DNA of 64,000 nucleotides from Gemmatimonadota bacterium (GTDB taxonomy: Bacteria > Gemmatimonadota > Gemmatimonadetes > Longimicrobiales > Gaopeijiaceae): positions 1 through 64,000 of the forward strand of contig JABDLS010000051.1 of NCBI GenBank assembly GCA_013002885.1, written 5' to 3'. The notes beneath the pieces are model-generated. The model worked only from the letters and a program-made list of their open reading frames with translations, had not been told where the DNA came from and made no database searches. The position numbers were made by a program, and so were the translations under genes. Positions 18,022-27,383 of this stretch are shown piece by piece. Within the stretch, counting starts at the first letter, position 1; each line of letters begins with the position of its first letter.

Positions 18022-20556
18022 TCAGCCGCATTCAGAGTACCCGCATACGTGGCACTTCTTGCACCCTTCCTCGAAGGCCAGGTGCCCGGTACCGCAGTCC
18101 GGGCAGGTGCCCATGTCGAAGAGATCGGGCCCGGAGGGCGCAGCCGACATCTGCGTGCTGGTGCCGTCGTCCCCCGTACCCATGGTGAGCGGCAGGGCCT
18201 CCTGGACGCCCTCCTTTTCCTGGAGGTACCGCTCGATGGCCTGACCGATGGCGTCGGGCACGGAAAGGACCTTGTTGGGTCCGAGGCCCACGGCCCGGTC
18301 GCACGAGATACCCCGGAGCTGCTCTTTGACCTGGGTGATGGAGATCCCGGACCGTAAGGCCAGCGACATGAGGCGCCCGATGGCCTCGGCGTCGGCCATG
18401 GCAGCTCCACCCGCCTTGCCCAGCGTGCAGAAGACCTCGAAGGGGCGCCCGTTGATGTCTTCGTTGATGGTCACGTAGAGGTCGCCGAGGGGCGACATCA
18501 TCTTCATCGTGTAACCCCGAAGAGCATCCGGACGCTGGCGCTTGTGCCGGGCAGCTCCCGCCGTCTCGTCCCGATCCTCGAGTTCGGCCTTGATGGCGTC
18601 AACCTCGATCCGGAGGTTATGTGCCTCTTCCCGGGCGTCGGCGAGCTGATGATGCAACTCCGACACCTCGCTGGAGACGTCGGCTCCGACGTCTTTCTTC
18701 GCGGTGGCTCCGGTAGAGAGGACCTGGCCCTCCCTCGAGCCGTCGCGATACACGGTCACGCCCTTACACCCGAGCTGGAAGGCCAGCTCGTAGATCTCGC
18801 GCACATCTTCCTCGGACGCTTCACGAGGGAAGTTGGTCGTCTTGGATATGGCCGAATCGGTGTGCTCCTGGAAGGCCGCCTGCATGCGCACGTGCCACTC
18901 CGGCGTGATGTCGTGGGCCGTTCGGAAGATCCGTTGGACGTCTTCCGGCACCTCGTCGAAGTGGATGTGACCCTCCTGGGCGATGCGCTCCATGAGGTCG
19001 TCGGAATACCATCCACCCTCTTCCGCCATGCGCACGAAATCGGGGTTCACGTCGGGCATCATCACGCCCGCCTGGTTCCTCATGAACGCCACCGCGAAGA
19101 GGGGCTCGATGCCGCCGGAGCAGCCGGCGAAGATGGAGATGGTGCCGGTGGGAGCCACGGTGGTGAGATTGCAGTTGCGCAGCGTCCTTTCGGGGCGGAT
19201 CCGCGTTCCGTCTTCTCGCGCTGCCGCCATACCGTCGGGTCCCCAGATCGACTCTTCCCACGCCGGAAAGACCCCGCGGGTCTCGGCCAGGCGCTCGGAC
19301 GCGTTGCGCGATTCCTCGTTGACGAACTCCATGACTCGCTGGCCGAGCTTCACACCCTCGGGGGAGTCGTACGGAATGCCCAGGCGAACGAGCATGTCGG
19401 CCCACCCCATCACACCCAGCCCGATTCGGCGGATGTTCTGGGCCAGGTCGTGGATCTCCGGGAGCGGGTAGCGGTTGGCGTCGATGACGTTGTCGAGGAA
19501 GTGCGTCGCCAGGTGGACGACCGTGCGGAGTGCATCCCAGTCGACGCCTTCGTCGGGGTCGACCCCGGGGCGGGCGTCGTCCTTCACGAACTTGCCGAGG
19601 TTGATGCTGCCCAGGTTGCACACGTCGTAGGGGAGGAGGGGCTGCTCCCCGCACGGGTTCGTGGCCTCGTAGCTCCCGAGGGCCGGGACCGGGTTGTACT
19701 CGTTGGCCCGATCGACGAAGAAGGTACCGGGCTCTCCGGTCAGCCAGGCGCCGTGGATGATCATGTCGAAGATCTCCTGGGCACTCTCCTGCCCCACCAC
19801 CTCGCTGGTCTTGGGATCTACGAGGTCGTACGTATCGCCCTTCGACACGGCCTCCATGAAGGCGTCGGTGATGGCGACGGAGATGTTGAAGTTCGTCACC
19901 TGCGTCGTGTCGTTCTTGCACATGATGAAACGACGGATGTCCGGATGGTCCACCCGCAGGATGCCCATATTGGCACCCCGGCGCGTCCCACCCTGCTTCA
20001 CCACGTCCGTGCTGGCGTCGTAGAGCTTCATGAACGATACCGGTCCCGACGCCACACCCATGGTGGAGCGGACGGTGTAGCCCTCGGGGCGCAAACGCGA
20101 GAAAGAGAAGCCCGTCCCCCCACCCGACTGGTGGACCAACGCCATGGACTTGAGCGTGTCGTAGATACCGCTCTGTCCGTTGGACAAAGCGTCGTCTACG
20201 GGAAGGACGAAGCACGCCGAAAGCTGCCCCAGGGGACGGCCGGCGTTCATCAAGGTCGGCGAGTTGGGCTCGAACTTCCCGTTGATCATGAGATCGAAGA
20301 ACTGACGTGCGACCTCATCGACCGCCGAGTCCGACGCACCGTACTCCGAGTCCACGTCGGCGATGGTCCGAGCAACCCGCCAGAACATGACCTCCGGCTC
20401 CTCCGTCGGGTTCCCCTCTCCGTCCTTCTTCAGGTACCTGCGCCCGAGGACGATTCTGGCGTTCTCGGTGAGCTCCGCCTCCGGCAGGTCGTCGGGCAGG
20501 ACGTCGTCGAAGATCACGGATTCTCTCTGGGGACGGGGCTCATGAACGCGGATCAT
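18022..20556 (-). CDS. nrdJ: class II (adenosylcobalamin-dependent) ribonucleotide reductase
   Basis: Reduces ribonucleotides to deoxyribonucleotides using a B12-derived radical and no oxygen. The 844-aa protein has the catalytic blocks NPCGEQPLLPYDVCNLGS, GLGVMGWADMLVRLGI and VAPTGTISIFAGCSGGIEP. A predicted coiled coil (about 625-665, SELHHQLADAREEAHNL) separates the barrel from a TSCPD domain (about 690-750). The C-terminus is a cysteine-rich zinc ribbon, CPDCG...CKKCHVCGYSECG, likely the redox tail. No NrdA/NrdB genes are present. Upstream is an elaborate regulatory region listed separately. Confidence 0.95.
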   Translation of the reverse strand: MIRVHEPRPQRESVIFDDVLPDDLPEAELTENARIVLGRRYLKKDGEGNPTEEPEVMFWRVARTIADVDSEYGASDSAVDEVARQFFDLMINGKFEPNSPTLMNAGRPLGQLSACFVLPVDDALSNGQSGIYDTLKSMALVHQSGGGTGFSFSRLRPEGYTVRSTMGVASGPVSFMKLYDASTDVVKQGGTRRGANMGILRVDHPDIRRFIMCKNDTTQVTNFNISVAITDAFMEAVSKGDTYDLVDPKTSEVVGQESAQEIFDMIIHGAWLTGEPGTFFVDRANEYNPVPALGSYEATNPCGEQPLLPYDVCNLGSINLGKFVKDDARPGVDPDEGVDWDALRTVVHLATHFLDNVIDANRYPLPEIHDLAQNIRRIGLGVMGWADMLVRLGIPYDSPEGVKLGQRVMEFVNEESRNASERLAETRGVFPAWEESIWGPDGMAAAREDGTRIRPERTLRNCNLTTVAPTGTISIFAGCSGGIEPLFAVAFMRNQAGVMMPDVNPDFVRMAEEGGWYSDDLMERIAQEGHIHFDEVPEDVQRIFRTAHDITPEWHVRMQAAFQEHTDSAISKTTNFPREASEEDVREIYELAFQLGCKGVTVYRDGSREGQVLSTGATAKKDVGADVSSEVSELHHQLADAREEAHNLRIEVDAIKAELEDRDETAGAARHKRQRPDALRGYTMKMMSPLGDLYVTINEDINGRPFEVFCTLGKAGGAAMADAEAIGRLMSLALRSGISITQVKEQLRGISCDRAVGLGPNKVLSVPDAIGQAIERYLQEKEGVQEALPLTMGTGDDGTSTQMSAAPSGPDLFDMGTCPDCGTGHLAFEEGCKKCHVCGYSECG

Positions 20557-20576
20557 CAGACGGCCAACTCCTGCGG

Positions 20577-20585
20577 TGTGGATAA
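20577..20585 (-). promoter_or_regulatory. perfect DnaA box in nrdJ leader
   Basis: TTATCCACA on the minus strand, an exact match to the strong DnaA consensus, 20 bp before the nrdJ ATG. DnaA controls nrd genes in E. coli and B. subtilis, so a regulatory role is plausible. Confidence 0.6.
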
Positions 20586-20588
20586 GAC

Positions 20589-20597
20589 GGTGGAAAA
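20589..20597 (-). promoter_or_regulatory. DnaA-like box
   Basis: TTTTCCACC on the minus strand, one mismatch from the TTTTCCACA variant, 12 bp from the perfect box and in the same orientation. The neighbouring TACTCCACCG repeats the pattern 10 bp away. Confidence 0.4.
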
Positions 20598-20615
20598 CGG
20601 TGGAGTATGAAGTCG

Positions 20616-20642
20616 AAAAACGGCGGGAAGCCCTCCCCGCCG
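20616..20642 (-). terminator. intrinsic terminator inside nrdJ leader
   Basis: On the minus strand CGGCGGG and CCCGCCG form a 7-bp GC stem around an 8-nt loop, directly followed by TTTTT. It lies between the predicted nrdJ promoter and the start codon, about 60 nt before the ATG. It could therefore cause premature termination (attenuation) of nrdJ. Confidence 0.6.
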
Positions 20643-20652
20643 GTCATCTTGC

Positions 20653-20661
20653 TGTGGAAAA
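20653..20661 (-). promoter_or_regulatory. DnaA-like box TTTTCCACA
   Basis: TTTTCCACA on the minus strand matches the relaxed DnaA consensus. It lies between the predicted transcription start and the leader terminator, in the same orientation as the other two boxes. Confidence 0.45.
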
Positions 20662-20672
20662 CCCGTCGACCC

Positions 20673-20688
20673 CTACCAGATCTAGGGT
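20673..20688 (-). promoter_or_regulatory. NrdR box 1
   Basis: CTACCAGATCTAGGGT (plus strand) matches the NrdR consensus acaCwAtATaTwGtgt at about ten positions. It sits at the predicted transcription start, 32 bp from box 2, close to three helical turns. That spacing is typical of paired NrdR operators. Confidence 0.6.
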
Positions 20689-20695
20689 GAGGCCC

Positions 20696-20724
20696 AGTCT
20701 AGGCACCCCATATCTAGTGGTCAA
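20696..20724 (-). promoter_or_regulatory. nrdJ promoter
   Basis: On the minus strand TTGACC (20724-20719) and TAGACT (20701-20696) are separated by exactly 17 bp. The predicted start is near 20689, giving a leader of about 130 nt. NrdR box 2 fills the spacer. Confidence 0.65.
20705..20720 (-). promoter_or_regulatory. NrdR box 2
   Basis: ACCCCATATCTAGTGG (plus strand) matches about 12 of 16 positions of the NrdR consensus. It lies between the -35 and -10 elements of the nrdJ promoter, where bound NrdR would block RNA polymerase. No nrdR gene is in this window. Confidence 0.7.
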
Positions 20725-20900
20725 GCCTGTTACACGACGCACCAGATGTTTGTCGTCACATCGTCACGGAGCATGGGGCATTTCGGTGTATATTCGGTAT
20801 TCGCGCCGTCGACGGCAAGGCCCGAGGGACATCTGCAGGTCGGGGGAAGAACGCTGTCCGGCCCTCGACTTCCACAGTCGCAGGAACCCGGTGACCGCGG
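20725..20900. other. rest of the nrdJ upstream gap
   Basis: This is the remainder of the only gene-free stretch above 300 bp (20557-20900). It holds a direct repeat TCGTCACA/TCGTCACG (20753-20768), two TTCGGT copies 11 bp apart (20782-20798) and a small inverted repeat CGACT-TCCAC-AGTCG (20866-20880). The last may end the transcript of the next gene. I found no convincing open frame or riboswitch core here. Confidence 0.4.
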
Positions 20901-23900
20901 TCAGAAGGGCAGCCCGACCCTCAGGTAGAACCGCGGCTCGCCGGCGGGCACCGTGGCGGTCACCAGGGGAAACGCCACCCCGCCGCGCACCCTCAGTTGG
21001 ATGTCGTAGAACGTCAGCATCTCCGCGGTCACTTCGGCGCCGCTCGATGCGATGGCAGTCCTGAGCGGATTCTGGAAGCCGGTGACCCATACATCGGGGC
21101 CCCACGCGTTACCGACGTCGAAGAACACGGACGCCATCATCCGGTCCAGGTGGATGGGCCATGCCCGGAATCCGGCGTGGATCATCCAAAGGGGAAGTCG
21201 GTACTCGGCGGAGGCGCTCCAGGCGTACCGCCCGAATCGGCTGGAGGGCTCGTAGCCACGCACGGGAAAGAAGAAGGACGTTCCCCCAAAGAGTTCGAGC
21301 CCGGTCACTGGCTCGGGCCGGCCGGTCGCTCCACCCACCCTGAAGTTCCCCGGGTCTGCGCCGGGCCCACCGGACACACCTCCGGATGCTCGGAAGGCGA
21401 GGACCTGGCGTGCGTGGCCAGCTCGCCAGAGGGGAACCGCGCCGCGCACGGAGCCCAACGCCTGGACGGTGGAGCGATCCGATCCCGCCACCGATCGCAG
21501 CGAGTCGGGGATTGTGACCTCCTGACGGACTCTACCCTGCACGAAGAGCCCCAGTCCCCGCGACGTCCCCATCTGGAAGGAATGGCTGCGTGTCGAGTTG
21601 AGCCTGAGAGAGATGGTCCCGTCCAGGAGCCGCGCCGAGGGCCGGAGCAGCTGGAACTCGTTGGTGGGCTCGAGGTTTCCCCCGAGAAGCCCGCGGTCCT
21701 CCCACACCATACCTCCTGAGAACGTCACCGAGCGATCCCACCTCCACGTCGGCGCCCGGAGGGTCACACCACCCTGCAGGAAGCGCTCCTGTCGGAGCAC
21801 GTAGAGCGTGTCGAGAGTAGCATCGCTCTGGCGGGTCGCGACCAGCTGCCCACCATCCTCGAACCTCTGTGTGGCGGAGAGGGTGAGAATCGGATTCCCA
21901 AGTCCGGCGTACGCATAGGACAACCCGCCGCTCAACTTGGTGGGTCCCTGTGTGGCGACCCGGGCGAAGAGCGTGTAGGCGTGGCGGCCCACGAGGTCGC
22001 GCCCCTCTGTCTGTATCCCTACGGACGGACCCAGGAGCTGTCGACCGGGAAGAGCCACGTCGGTGCCTCCGACGTTGACGACCGCCGCCGGGGTCCGGAT
22101 CTCGTCGTCGTACGAAATCTCCCAATACCAAGGGCGAAGCGTCGAGCCCGCCGAGTAGTCTCGCACCTCCCCCTCTTCGGGCGCCCGGACCGTCCCCGGT
22201 CCATCCGCGAGGAAGCGAGACGCCAACGGCGGTCGGACAGCTCCCTCCTCCGGCCGGAAGGGCACCCTTTCGATCTCCCAACCGTCGACGTGGTAGCCGC
22301 TCAGGTAGAGCCACTCGCCGGCGGGGTCCACCACAGGGTAAGCGACACCCGTTCGGACGTTGGTCACCAGCACCGCGTCCCCGACGGCTCCGTCCGAATC
22401 CACCGGAGCCGCGTAGGCGTTGAACACGCCTGTCCGGTCCGAGGCCCACACCAGCCACTGCCCATCTGCACTCCATCGGGGGCCGAGGTCCAGCGCTCGA
22501 TCGTCGGTTACACGTTGGACGATGGCTCCGGTGGACGCGTCCAGGACGACGACGTCGTGGCGGGCATCCGGCTCGAACCGGGAGGCGGAGATCCACCTTC
22601 CATCGGGCGAAATGCGCGGAAACGCCCAATGAACGTCCGGCCGGGCCCCGACCAGGACCCGGGTTTCTCCTGTGGCGAGACCATAGGTGACGAGCTCATT
22701 GGTCCCGTTCCCCTCTCGGACAGCCACCGCGAATGAGCCATCGGCGGATACCGCCGGCTGGTTCAGGCGAGCGCCCTCGGTAAGTCTTCGCTGTTCTCCG
22801 GAGAGGTCGAAGACGTACAGGTCTTTGTACAGGCGGTAGGGGTCGTCGAGCTCCAGTTGGCTCACCAGGAGCGACTCGGAGTCGATCCACGCCAGGGTCG
22901 CGAGCTGATTGGTCCTGCCGAGTGACCTCGCCTCTCCCGACTCCAGGTCGATGACCTGGACCTCCACGTCGGATATGCCGTCGGCCCGTGCATAGGCGAG
23001 CCATCGGCCGTCTGGAGAAACCTCTGGATAGAGTGCCCAGCGGGCGCCTTCGGTGAGAGCCTCGGGCTCGGTGATGGGCCCCAGGCGGCGGAGGGCCCGT
23101 TCGAAATCGGCGAGGCCCGCTTCAACCTCGGCTTCCCACACCTTCCACTCCTCCGTGAGCGAGGCGCCGAAGGCGCTGCGGCCGGCGGCGTCCAGGCGAT
23201 AGGGAATCCACTGACCACCGACGGCATCGACGAAAGCGCTCATCCTGTCCTCCCCGTGCTTGTCGAGGAGGTAGTCGAAGAACATGGTCCCGTAGAGGTA
23301 GGGACGGTTGCCGCTAGGCCATACCGGGGACTCGCCGGCCGCCTGCCCGATGCTTTCGAACCGTCCTTCCAGCGCCGCCGTCCGCAGCTGCATCTCGAGG
23401 AAGCTGCCCCGCGCACGCCCCGCCTGGGTGAGGCGTGACTCGTACCAGGTGGCGATTCCCTCGATGACCCACCGCGGGGTCCCGAGTTCGGGGAAGAATG
23501 GCCACTCGGCGGGAACTCGCCCGAAGAAGGCGCGCCCCAATCGGCCGATGGGATTGACCACATGATCCAGGTGGATGATGTGGGCCAACTCGTGGGTGAT
23601 GACCAGCTCCAACCACTCGTCCGCGAAGCCCAGGGAGAGGGCTTCGGTGGGAGGTCGGGCGAAGATGGTGATGCGGTTGGAGGGCGTGACGGCGGCGAAG
23701 CCGTTGGAGACGTCGGCGTGGTCGGTCAGCAGCAGGTCGATTCGGTCGTCTGGTGGCTCGATGAAGTGCTGTTCCAACTCGTCGTACGCGCGCTCTGCGC
23801 GGTCCGCGGCCTCCCGACCGAGGGCCTCGAGCTCCGCCGGGAAGGTGACCCGGAAATGCGCCGTTTCCAGGGTGCGCCAATCCTCGTCCGGCGCCTGGGC

Positions 23901-24026
23901 AACGGCCGAGCCCGGATGCACCCCTACCAGCGCGGCGACGGCGACGGCCAGTCCGGACAGGCGCAGTCCCTTCTTGATCCACGTCGGGCCGACTCCCCAT
24001 CTTCTGCGTCCGCTTCTCGAACTCAT
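20901..24026 (-). CDS. gluzincin-like protease / TolB-like beta-propeller / outer-membrane barrel fusion
   Basis: A 1041-aa exported protein with three parts. After a signal peptide (LSGLAVAVAALVGVHPGSAVAQA) comes a gluzincin-type peptidase domain with HELAHIIHLDH (HExxH at about 145-149) and a downstream glutamate in EGIATWYES (about 189), as in peptidase-MA-like proteins. Residues about 325-640 contain WD40/TolB-like propeller blades (PEVSPDGRWLAYARADG, PRISPDGRWISASRF, PRWSADGQWLVWASDR). The rest (about 650-1041) resembles a BamA-type outer-membrane barrel and ends in Phe (VGLPF). The ATG at 24026 is the only reasonable start, 5 bp from that of a divergent gene. Confidence 0.85.
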   Translation of the reverse strand: MSSRSGRRRWGVGPTWIKKGLRLSGLAVAVAALVGVHPGSAVAQAPDEDWRTLETAHFRVTFPAELEALGREAADRAERAYDELEQHFIEPPDDRIDLLLTDHADVSNGFAAVTPSNRITIFARPPTEALSLGFADEWLELVITHELAHIIHLDHVVNPIGRLGRAFFGRVPAEWPFFPELGTPRWVIEGIATWYESRLTQAGRARGSFLEMQLRTAALEGRFESIGQAAGESPVWPSGNRPYLYGTMFFDYLLDKHGEDRMSAFVDAVGGQWIPYRLDAAGRSAFGASLTEEWKVWEAEVEAGLADFERALRRLGPITEPEALTEGARWALYPEVSPDGRWLAYARADGISDVEVQVIDLESGEARSLGRTNQLATLAWIDSESLLVSQLELDDPYRLYKDLYVFDLSGEQRRLTEGARLNQPAVSADGSFAVAVREGNGTNELVTYGLATGETRVLVGARPDVHWAFPRISPDGRWISASRFEPDARHDVVVLDASTGAIVQRVTDDRALDLGPRWSADGQWLVWASDRTGVFNAYAAPVDSDGAVGDAVLVTNVRTGVAYPVVDPAGEWLYLSGYHVDGWEIERVPFRPEEGAVRPPLASRFLADGPGTVRAPEEGEVRDYSAGSTLRPWYWEISYDDEIRTPAAVVNVGGTDVALPGRQLLGPSVGIQTEGRDLVGRHAYTLFARVATQGPTKLSGGLSYAYAGLGNPILTLSATQRFEDGGQLVATRQSDATLDTLYVLRQERFLQGGVTLRAPTWRWDRSVTFSGGMVWEDRGLLGGNLEPTNEFQLLRPSARLLDGTISLRLNSTRSHSFQMGTSRGLGLFVQGRVRQEVTIPDSLRSVAGSDRSTVQALGSVRGAVPLWRAGHARQVLAFRASGGVSGGPGADPGNFRVGGATGRPEPVTGLELFGGTSFFFPVRGYEPSSRFGRYAWSASAEYRLPLWMIHAGFRAWPIHLDRMMASVFFDVGNAWGPDVWVTGFQNPLRTAIASSGAEVTAEMLTFYDIQLRVRGGVAFPLVTATVPAGEPRFYLRVGLPF

Positions 24027-24031
24027 CGGCC

Positions 24032-24697
24032 ATGGCCTCCGACACGAGCATCTGGTACCAACTGGGTCACGCCCTCGAGCGTGCCCGCCACACGGCTCCC
24101 ACTCCCCGAGCTGTCGTCACCGGCGACGACGAAGACAATGGCGAGGGCTCGGACAGCTTGACGATCCCGAGGCCCGAGATCCCGTCCAGCGATGAACTGA
24201 TGACCGCGGGCATCGCCCTCGTGGTGGACAAAGCACTCGAGGGGTGGACTGGCCGGCGCCAGCCGGGACTGATGCTCCTCCTGCGAGCCGCGGCGGCCGG
24301 GGCCGCGGCAGCGCTTCTCACGGACCTCATCCGACCTCTCCTCCGGGGCGATGCCGAGCTGCCCACGATGGACCCGGACACCGCGGGACGGATACTGGCC
24401 GGTCTGGGACAAGGCCTCGTCTACGGTGGCGTCGTCGAGCCGCGCCTGCCCGGGCCCGCCCTTCTCAAGGGGGCCGTATTCGGCTCCCTCGAGTACGCGG
24501 TGCGCCCCATGGGCGGTCTCACCGGCATCCTCGGATCGCACACGCCACAGCGGAAGATCCCCTTCGTCGGCGACGTCCTCGACGGTCTCGATGGGGACGA
24601 CCGGGCTTATCTGGAGCATCTGGTCTTCGGCATCGCGCTGGCCTTGATCTACGAGTCGGGTCCTTCGAGTAACGGGATGAGCCCCGACGAAGAGTAG
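24032..24697 (+). CDS. predicted membrane protein, unknown
   Basis: A 221-aa product I do not recognise. It has a hydrophilic N-terminus of about 55 residues, then small-residue-rich hydrophobic stretches (LMLLLRAAAAGAAAALLTDLI, ILAGLGQGLVYGGVV and LVFGIALALIYESG) that suggest three or more membrane segments. The start is uncertain: an internal MTAGIALVVDK could also begin the protein. Its 3' end overlaps the convergent GT39-like gene by 49 bp, and its start lies 5 bp from the divergent protease gene, so both ends are tightly packed. Confidence 0.6.
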   Translation: MASDTSIWYQLGHALERARHTAPTPRAVVTGDDEDNGEGSDSLTIPRPEIPSSDELMTAGIALVVDKALEGWTGRRQPGLMLLLRAAAAGAAAALLTDLIRPLLRGDAELPTMDPDTAGRILAGLGQGLVYGGVVEPRLPGPALLKGAVFGSLEYAVRPMGGLTGILGSHTPQRKIPFVGDVLDGLDGDDRAYLEHLVFGIALALIYESGPSSNGMSPDEE

Positions 24698-26379
24698 TCA
24701 TCCGCCGGTGCCATCGGTTCCGCCATGTACTCGCCGGGACAACTCTCCAGTCGGACGTCGCCCCCGACGGCATCTGTGGTCTCCCTCACAGTCGGAGGCA
24801 ACACACCCAGGAGTTGGCTGCCCCCGTTGGCGGCACTTCCGAATCCCCGGACGAAGCAGAAGGCACCGGGCCGTCGGGTCACTGCCGAGGCGACGTACCG
24901 TCGAGCGAAGCCATCCCATTGATCCAGGAGGATGTACCGGGCTGCCAGGGCATCCGCCAACTCCAGATGGGCGGCGGGCTCCTCGAAGAACGCGAACGCT
25001 CGGCTGGGGACACCGCTCTGGAGGTAGTAGTGGCGTGGCTTCCGGCTGAGGACCCGCTCGCCGTCGGGCAGGCCGTCGCCACTCCATGCGGCTGCGGCCA
25101 TGAAGCTCTGGACCCCGGGCCCGTAGCAACCCCACACGTCCCGAGCGCGGACGTCTGCGGGGCAAGCCGAAGACGTCTCCGTCGCTCTCCGCCAGGCGTC
25201 GGCTGCCGGCAGGAGCAAAGCGAGCACGAGTACCGTTCCGACCACGGGTACCGCCGCCTCTGGCACCCGCCGGGTTGCAGTGCGAAAGGCCACGGCGCCG
25301 TAGGCGAAGGCCAGGGGCAGAAGCGGAAGGGCGAACCGGTCTCCGCTCCAGACCGTGGGCCATAGGAGGACGACGCCCCAGTACAGTGGGAAGAAGAGCT
25401 CAGCTGGGCCCAACTCTTCTCGTACACGGATGAACCATCCGGCGCAGGCCGCGCCTACGAGCGCCACCCCCACTGCCGTGGCAGCGGGAGCATCGCCGCC
25501 CACGACGCCCACCGGCAGATGAGCGGTCGTATAGCCGACGGCATTCTCGGCGACCCGCCCCACCAGACCTCCGATTCCTACCGTGCCCAGGGACGGATCG
25601 TACGGGTTCACCATCCAGAACTCGGAAGCGTATTGGGCGACGCCCTGAACTGATCGAGCCCGGACCCACCACGCCGCCAGGGGGAGTCCGAGGGCGATCG
25701 ACGCTGCACCCAGCGGCCGCCAGGCTCGTCGGACGGCGAGCCAAGCAAAGAGCGCAAGGACCAGCGGCAACCCGGCCGATCGGGTGAAGTAGGCCAACCC
25801 CGTCGCAACGATCCCGAAAGCGAGCCATCGGGGGTCGAGGACGCGACCCTCGGCACCCACCCCGACCTTCGACCCCTCGTCCACCCCGCCCTCGGTCCGC
25901 CCGGAGCGGTCCGCCCGCGCCAGGGCGTAGAGCGCCATCATGGTGAAGGCCAGGAACACGGGGTCGGAAAGAACCCATTGGCTGTAATAGACGACACCCG
26001 CCGATACAGCCACGAGCAGGGCGACGGCAAAGGCTCCGAGAGGCTTCAGTACGCTCTCCGCCCACAGGTACGCGAAGGCCACCGAGACCACCGTGGCGAC
26101 GGCGGCTACGCTCTTGAGTGCGACCCACGTCCGGGCTCCGAGCGCGATGAGAAGCGCCAGAAGGGCCGGAAAGACCGGCGGGTATTTGGTGTGGGGCAGC
26201 GCTTCCGGATCGAAGATGTCGGTGTACGTCCCGTTGGTCAGCAGGCCGTGGGCCAATGCGATGTAGCCGGCGTTGTCCCCTCCAGGGTGCGGAAGGGGGT
26301 TCGCAGCGGTCCACACCACGGTTGTGGAGACGAGGGAGACGCCTCCCAGTAGGAGCAAGCGAAGGTGGCCCCGCTTCAA
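24649..26379 (-). CDS. GT39/ArnT-like multi-pass membrane glycosyltransferase
   Basis: A 576-aa protein with about ten or more hydrophobic segments. The N-terminal loop GGDNAGYIALAHGLL and the following TKYPPVFPALLALLIALG resemble the PMT/GT39 and ArnT group, which move sugars from a lipid carrier in the outer leaflet of the inner membrane. A large extracytoplasmic C-terminal region follows, including RKPRHYYLQSGVPS. The acceptor is unknown. It overlaps murQ by 4 bp, so the two are likely co-transcribed, and it overlaps the convergent gene at its 3' end. Confidence 0.8.
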   Translation of the reverse strand: MKRGHLRLLLLGGVSLVSTTVVWTAANPLPHPGGDNAGYIALAHGLLTNGTYTDIFDPEALPHTKYPPVFPALLALLIALGARTWVALKSVAAVATVVSVAFAYLWAESVLKPLGAFAVALLVAVSAGVVYYSQWVLSDPVFLAFTMMALYALARADRSGRTEGGVDEGSKVGVGAEGRVLDPRWLAFGIVATGLAYFTRSAGLPLVLALFAWLAVRRAWRPLGAASIALGLPLAAWWVRARSVQGVAQYASEFWMVNPYDPSLGTVGIGGLVGRVAENAVGYTTAHLPVGVVGGDAPAATAVGVALVGAACAGWFIRVREELGPAELFFPLYWGVVLLWPTVWSGDRFALPLLPLAFAYGAVAFRTATRRVPEAAVPVVGTVLVLALLLPAADAWRRATETSSACPADVRARDVWGCYGPGVQSFMAAAAWSGDGLPDGERVLSRKPRHYYLQSGVPSRAFAFFEEPAAHLELADALAARYILLDQWDGFARRYVASAVTRRPGAFCFVRGFGSAANGGSQLLGVLPPTVRETTDAVGGDVRLESCPGEYMAEPMAPADDYSSSGLIPLLEGPDS

Positions 26380-27278
26380 GGCCCGAAGCCCCCGACCACA
26401 CGGGAAATTACGCCGTCCGCATTCCCGAGCCGACGGCGGGCCTCGGCGGCATCCACACCCAGCCGTCCCATGACCAGCGCCGTCTTCACGTGCCCACCCG
26501 CCCGCTCGAGGAGGTCGGCGGCCTCCTCTCGCTCGATATCCAGCATTCCTTCAAGGATCCGCTCCCCCCGGTCCTTCAGCTTCGCACACGTGACCTGGAG
26601 GTCCACCATGAGGTTCCCGTAGACCTTCCCCAGCCTGACCATCGCGCCGGTGGTGATTGTGTTGAGCACGAGCTTGGTCGCCGTACCGGCTTTCATCCGG
26701 GTGGATCCCGTGATGACCTCGGGCCCCACCAACGGCGCGATGACCACGTCGAGGCGCTCCACCAACTCCCGAGGCGGCTCGGTGCACATGAGGAAGCCGG
26801 TCCGAGCACCCAACTCGGAGGCTCGATCCACCGCCCCGTGTACGTAGGGTGTCGTGCCCGAGGTGGCGATGCCGAGGACGAAGTCCTGCGGGCCCACAGC
26901 CAAGCGGTCCATCTCCACCGCCCCGTCTGCCGGGTGGTCTTCAGCACCCTCCTGGGCCCGGACCAGTGCATCGTATCCACCGGCGATCACGCCGCGGACC
27001 ATCATGGGGTCGGTCCCGTACGTGGGGGGCATCTCGGCAGCGTCGAGGACACCGAGCCTTCCCGACGTACCCGCGCCGACATAGATGAGACGGCCACCGG
27101 TACGAAACGCCTCCTCGGCCAGCTCCACGGCCCGGGCGATGGCCACGCGCTCTTCCCCCACGGCCTCGGCTACCCGCCGATCCTCGGCGTTGATGAGGTC
27201 GACGATCCCCTGGGCGTCGAGTTCGTCGATGCCTTGGGAAGCAGGATTTCGCTGTTCGGTGAGGCGAGGATCGCGCAT
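26376..27278 (-). CDS. murQ: N-acetylmuramic acid 6-phosphate etherase
   Basis: Cleaves the lactyl ether of MurNAc-6-phosphate to give GlcNAc-6-phosphate during cell-wall recycling. The 300-aa SIS-fold protein starts MRDPRLTEQRNPAS at the ATG at 27278. The track ORF from 28178 is an antisense-like extension through the next gene. It shows LIYVGAGTSGRLGVLDAAEMPPTYG (active-site glutamate), GIATSGTTPYVHGA and the signature GSTRMKAGTATKLVLN. No nagZ or MurNAc kinase gene is nearby. It is divergent from the gamma-glutamyltransferase gene. Confidence 0.95.
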   Translation of the reverse strand: MRDPRLTEQRNPASQGIDELDAQGIVDLINAEDRRVAEAVGEERVAIARAVELAEEAFRTGGRLIYVGAGTSGRLGVLDAAEMPPTYGTDPMMVRGVIAGGYDALVRAQEGAEDHPADGAVEMDRLAVGPQDFVLGIATSGTTPYVHGAVDRASELGARTGFLMCTEPPRELVERLDVVIAPLVGPEVITGSTRMKAGTATKLVLNTITTGAMVRLGKVYGNLMVDLQVTCAKLKDRGERILEGMLDIEREEAADLLERAGGHVKTALVMGRLGVDAAEARRRLGNADGVISRVVGGFGP

Positions 27279-27383
27279 GGGCGGTTGTGAGCGGGAGCGG
27301 CGCGTCAGATCTTCAGCGGCGCCCGAAGCTATGAGAAGCGACGCGGCACCGGCAACGAACCCTACCCCCGAACCCGACCCTCG

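Follow-up and report, generated by a model that had tools for sequence, protein, structure and literature searches.

The minus strand of the window (the whole stretch of 64,000 nucleotides that was analysed) encodes, at positions 20901-24026, a single chain of 1041 residues in which a signal peptide, a predicted gluzincin peptidase, a six-bladed TolB-like propeller and a C-terminal Omp85-type barrel follow one another. That protease, propeller and outer-membrane barrel are joined here in one chain had been proposed in a sequence-only reading, and is borne out by the single ORF and by its AlphaFold2 model. By analogy, the protein is probably a protease anchored in the outer membrane and facing the periplasm. 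The propeller-barrel layout already has a name, WD40-Omp85, given in 2014, and for the attached gluzincin no description was found in the open-licence literature. The features, all on the minus strand, are the following.

20901..24026 (-): whole ORF, 1041 aa, with signal peptide, gluzincin peptidase, six-bladed propeller and Omp85 barrel
23892..24026 (-): predicted signal peptide, residues 1-45 (SAVAQA|PDE), with a long, arginine-rich n-region; read from the sequence, with conserved A43-Q44 and low pLDDT over residues 1-44
23073..23891 (-): predicted gluzincin (Peptidase_MA type) domain, residues 46-318; AlphaFold2, Foldseek, PF13485 in 21 of 51 members
23580..23594 (-): HELAH, residues 145-149, putative zinc ligands H145 and H149 and general base E146; all three invariant
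23439..23462 (-): EGIATWYE, residues 189-196, putative third zinc ligand E189 and invariant E196; from conservation and alignment with EG...YVE of the M1 enzyme 3cia
23289..23303 (-): PYLYG, residues 242-246, with invariant Y243 and G246, apparently corresponding to the M1 catalytic tyrosine motif (PYxKG)
22158..23066 (-): six-bladed TolB-like propeller, about residues 321-623; strand pattern of the model, PD40 and TolB profiles, TolB at the top of Foldseek
20904..22064 (-): predicted 16-strand Omp85-type barrel without POTRA, about residues 655-1041; model strands, 9hiv_A, PF01103 in 27 of 51, 9ccg
21252..21263 (-): VRGY, residues 922-925, Omp85 L6 motif (V/I-R-G-F/Y); R923 and G924 invariant
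21204..21206 (-): E941, within SASAEYRLP, equivalent to the Glu that BamA conserves after L6; nearly invariant
21102..21125 (-): FFDVGNAW, residues 968-975, Omp85 FxDxG..W motif; aligned with BamA-type paralogues
20904..20906 (-): C-terminal Phe, residue 1041

The ORF starts with an ATG and fills exactly these bounds; a GGAGG read by eye lies about 9 nt 5' of this codon, which is a normal spacing. The signal peptide noticed previously would run from residue 1 to about 45, and the A-Q pair near the expected cleavage site is conserved among the homologues. For the whole chain, AlphaFold2 with an alignment of 55 homologues gave a mean pLDDT of 91.2 and a pTM of 0.90. An Rfam search gave no match. 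A putative membrane protein of 221 residues is encoded divergently (plus strand, 24032-24697); its first ATG and the start of the fusion ORF are only 5 bp apart. It is kept in close relatives (cluster C6) and has no Pfam match.

The peptidase domain modelled alone (pLDDT 92.6, pTM 0.91) is a mixed alpha/beta fold, and its Foldseek neighbours in the PDB are M1 aminopeptidases including 3cia, LTA4H, the M30 enzyme lugdulysin, M61 and M9 collagenase. Structure prediction and these top matches thus place the HExxH within a gluzincin fold. PF13485 (Peptidase_MA_2) matches 21 of the 51 aligned homologues. The matches of the fusion protein itself to peptidase profiles are weak, and the curated Pfam cut-off for family M48 is not reached (14-16 bits versus 20.3). 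The glutamate expected downstream of the HExxH corresponds to E189, within WVIEGIATWYE, and both HELAH and E189 are invariant in the 55 homologues. Indeed, H145, E146, H149, E189, Y243 and G246 are invariant peptidase columns over this set, in which identity falls to about 30%; conservation was scored by alignment columns, since a strict motif regex undercounts where the spacing varies. HExxH by itself arises in 1.4% of shuffles of the fusion protein, so that the joint invariance of HExxH, E189 and Y243 is not due to chance. In an alignment to the M1 enzyme 3cia, a weak match (E=0.34), the EG...YVE and PYxxG stretches line up, and Y243 is presumably the counterpart of the M1 catalytic tyrosine. 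The M1 exopeptidase motif GxMEN is absent from the fusion-protein sequence, and E189 is located 40 residues after H149 rather than at the 18-residue HExxH-Glu spacing of M1. The invariant H145, E146, H149, E189 and Y243 argue for retained catalysis.

The TolB-like blades seen in the sequence form a six-bladed propeller in the AlphaFold2 model, matched by Pfam PD40 (E=5e-14) and by NCBIfam TolB (E=3e-20; 72 bits, below the equivalog cut-off of 343). TolB ranked first when the whole model was compared with the PDB using Foldseek. In the model, the propeller directly precedes barrel strand 1. Fusions of propellers to enzymes are common in the host genome, e.g. L173 and L174, PD40 propeller proteins of about 1100 aa with amidohydrolase domains.

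The barrel that had been suspected at the C-terminus is, in the model, a 16-strand barrel of Omp85 type that ends with F1041. Counted from the DSSP string, 11 strands are followed by a long L6 segment and then 5 strands, the identity of the short strand that comes first being uncertain. Foldseek against the PDB retrieved BamA of Bacteroides thetaiotaomicron (9hiv_A, E=4e-7), and the barrel profile matched the POTRA protein 9ccg (E=1.3e-4). The Pfam Omp85 match of the fusion protein itself is sub-threshold (PF01103, residues 846-1000, E=0.0013, 18.8 bits versus a cut-off of 24), and this family matches 27 of the 51 aligned barrels at E<=0.01, the best at 3.7e-9. Compared with the host's own BamA-type barrels, the barrel profile aligned across the FxDxG region with an hhalign probability of 93%, over a short stretch. 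R923, G924, F968, G996 and E998 are invariant barrel columns in the same 55 homologues; an FxDxG-type motif is present in all 109 long homologues, and the final residue is aromatic in every one of them (109/109). With its strand number, its L6 and FxDxG motifs and the PF01103 matches across homologues, the barrel is a member of the Omp85 superfamily. No Pfam match to a POTRA domain was found in the fusion protein; this is not a defining exclusion, because the 2014 survey includes Omp85 subfamilies devoid of POTRA (PMC4104836).

A search for the same domain order showed that the layout is widespread in Gemmatimonadota and shared by at least one further paralogous group. Matches at E<=1e-10, some of which are paralogues, occur in 228 of 298 genomes of this phylum, and a close member (E<=1e-78, peptidase profile) in 72 of 121 genomes, with one in each. 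Querying the genome contigs with a single sequence returned no relatives; the alignment-based query returned 291. Among the more distant peptidase-profile matches, at least two other groups can be told apart, with proteins of about 1000-1200 aa. In one of them (e.g. L182, L188, L194), PD40 and Omp85 are matched and the RG and FxDxG motifs are present, i.e. the same layout. In another (e.g. L178-L181), HEYAHLAHL-type sites are combined with a barrel-sized C-terminus that is not recognised by Pfam. These distant paralogues, together with L191, show few PD40 matches and a C-terminus without the Omp85 RG-motif loop or FxDxG, and possibly carry the same peptidase on a different barrel type. A peptidase-propeller pair without barrel is encoded on plasmid pSR116 of Salinibacter ruber (L177:3890-5788). 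The S. ruber protein WP_118831798.1, a "basic secretory protein-like protein", resembles the fusion protein in peptidase and propeller (26% identity over residues 43-620) and differs in that, with 633 aa, it stops after the propeller. Given the barrel-fused groups on the one hand and this barrel-less pair on the other, the peptidase-propeller pair is therefore a module that in Gemmatimonadota commonly comes with an outer-membrane barrel attached.

Heinz and Lithgow distinguished in 2014 ten Omp85/TpsB subfamilies, including WD40-Omp85 (a TolB-like propeller and no POTRA) and 'Metallo' (PF00149) (PMC4104836). WD40-Omp85 was catalogued there without a function, and a 2024 paper still describes those subfamilies as not well characterised (PMC11116518). 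The fusion protein shares with WD40-Omp85 the TolB-like propeller directly N-terminal to a POTRA-less barrel, and differs by its peptidase domain, of which the main text of the survey gives no description (PMC4104836). Judged by that main-text description, the fusion proteins may be WD40-Omp85 members whose protease went unremarked. PlpD, of the patatin-Omp85 type, likewise has an enzyme domain N-terminal to the barrel, and this domain is periplasmic; in contrast to the fusion protein, its enzyme is a patatin lipase and not a metallopeptidase, it has one POTRA instead of a propeller, and it is known as a homodimer (PMC11116518). The patatin domain that defines type Vd / patatin-Omp85 proteins gave no Pfam match in the fusion protein. 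Neither did PF00149, which we take to be a calcineurin-like phosphoesterase fold and not a gluzincin. 'Metallo' Omp85 proteins, which are defined by PF00149 (PMC4104836), thus resemble the fusion protein in having an N-terminal metal-enzyme domain on an Omp85 barrel and differ in the family of this domain. BepA (M48 and TPR) resembles the fusion protein, as proposed here, in being an HExxH gluzincin of the periplasm with a link to Omp85 barrels, but is a separate soluble protein with TPRs and belongs to family M48, matched by the fusion peptidase only below the cut-off. TolB, whose six-bladed PD40 propeller is the best Foldseek and profile match of the fusion propeller, is in contrast a free periplasmic protein, and the host has a TolB-like protein of its own (C75). 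The view that no function has been described for this layout agrees with our search of the open-licence literature, in which no paper on a gluzincin attached to a propeller-Omp85 protein was found. Omp85 proteins serve both to build outer membranes and to pierce them, and very few members with enzymatic domains have been studied (PlpD). An apparently intact zinc-protease site, joined to the barrel by a propeller in a family found across the phylum, would reveal a second enzyme class on Omp85 barrels, and the family would offer a single-chain system in which to study the coupling between proteolysis and the assembly of outer-membrane proteins.

To the reading as a periplasmic zinc protease anchored in the outer membrane, with propeller and barrel bringing clients and a role in envelope biogenesis and quality control, we would give an even chance. 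The chain would be exported by Sec and its C-terminal 16-strand Omp85-type barrel inserted in the outer membrane. The TolB-like propeller would sit where the barrel opens to the periplasm, in place of POTRA domains, and the N-terminal gluzincin, with H145, E146, H149, E189 and probably Y243, would hang in the periplasm and cleave polypeptides delivered by the propeller and/or the barrel. Its substrates would most likely be outer-membrane or secreted proteins. We infer in this way its periplasmic side, zinc binding, proteolytic activity and substrate class. Functionally, the chain could be likened to BepA (protease), BamB (propeller) and BamA (barrel) combined. The periplasmic orientation is favoured because N-terminal domains of Omp85 proteins are on the periplasmic side, the propeller sits at the POTRA position and PlpD keeps its lipase periplasmic. 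BepA is a metalloprotease of the periplasm that acts on BAM (PMC8423444, PMC13067283), and by this analogy the fusion protein would most likely serve in the quality control of outer-membrane proteins. A bolder version, possible but doubtful in our view, is a self-contained, non-BAM 'assembly-or-destroy' machine, in which the barrel would engage client barrels while propeller and gluzincin would inspect them and cut stalled ones; protease-coupled Omp85 proteins would then be a general class in Gemmatimonadota.

Eight Omp85 matches were found in the host (draft genome of 4.0 Mb), and one of them is a canonical BamA with five POTRAs; the fusion protein is therefore an accessory Omp85. Besides this BamA and the TolB-like protein, the genome contains three M48 genes, one of which, in a 486-aa frame, could be BepA-like. 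The fusion thus adds to these functions and does not replace them, and a role in quality control would not be unique to it. Given these M48 genes and the separate TolB-like protein, we discarded the idea that it replaces BepA, BamB or TolB; a search of the host genome for BamB gave sub-threshold propeller matches only. Another Omp85 protein, of 1062 aa, is encoded in this genome (L169:3470-6655, contig C31), and its N-terminal part of about 800 residues is without Pfam family.

The genetic context could point to another role. Work of the gluzincin in peptidoglycan turnover, either on stem peptides or muropeptides or in the processing of amidases, would fit with murQ, anmK or Amidase_3 being found at most four genes upstream on the same strand in 60 of 90 non-redundant loci, and with the link of TolB-type propellers to peptidoglycan reported in PMC4104836. 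However, the immediate upstream gene varies between lineages, profile scans of the fusion protein revealed no peptidoglycan-binding domain, and genomes devoid of the fusion gene retain the block (anmK-GT39-nrdJ in L199, murQ-anmK-nrdJ in L203). Since the block persists where the fusion gene is missing, this peptidoglycan-recycling/nrdJ context is best read as ancestral, and the conserved neighbourhood looks like ancestral gene order. The peptidoglycan operon was for the same reason set aside as a functional link; the cell-wall role itself, kept as a rival, we consider unlikely. As some related genomes with this neighbourhood lack the fusion gene, it is not essential in the phylum. No envelope-biogenesis genes were found linked to it, the neighbours being nrdJ and peptidoglycan-recycling genes.

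Quite unlikely, in our estimation, is a factor for barrel assembly or translocation in which the work is done by the Omp85 barrel, with the peptidase serving mainly to hold substrates. The Omp85 proteins studied before PlpD act in assembly or translocation of outer-membrane proteins (PMC11116518), and BepA has a chaperone-like role too (PMC8423444), but invariant H145, E146, H149, E189 and Y243 in 55 of 55 aligned homologues speak against a mainly non-catalytic domain. Export of peptidase and propeller through their own barrel (type Vd-like) to act outside the cell was the first kind of proposal for PlpD and FplA (discussed in PMC11116518), and the barrel-less relative on the S. ruber plasmid means that the pair can work detached, but we regard it as improbable: the enzyme domain of PlpD, once believed to export its lipase, proved periplasmic in experiments (PMC11116518), a large folded propeller occupies the site of the periplasmic POTRAs right before strand 1, and no processing site or long translocation linker was seen in the fusion protein. 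Of the earlier interpretation, gluzincin, propeller and outer-membrane barrel in one chain are supported, and surface display or barrel delivery is not.

Across the phylum, the block murQ / anmK / Amidase_3 ... nrdJ, here at window positions 18022-27290 on the minus strand, is kept even without the protease-Omp85 gene. The downstream neighbour encodes a ribonucleotide reductase large chain with a TSCPD domain and is read as class II nrdJ. Of 95 non-redundant loci, 43 have it as the next gene downstream on the same strand, and 61 have it within the fetched flank. An nrdJ operon was considered as a functional link and rejected, because a terminator-like hairpin precedes nrdJ, which moreover keeps its neighbourhood without the fusion gene. 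This strong hairpin with its T-run (CGGCGGGGAGGGCTTCCCGCCG TTTTT; 20621-20642, minus strand) lies between the two genes, some 65 nt ahead of the nrdJ start; a promoter-like site accompanies it at 20696-20724. The hairpin could be a terminator or an nrdJ attenuator.
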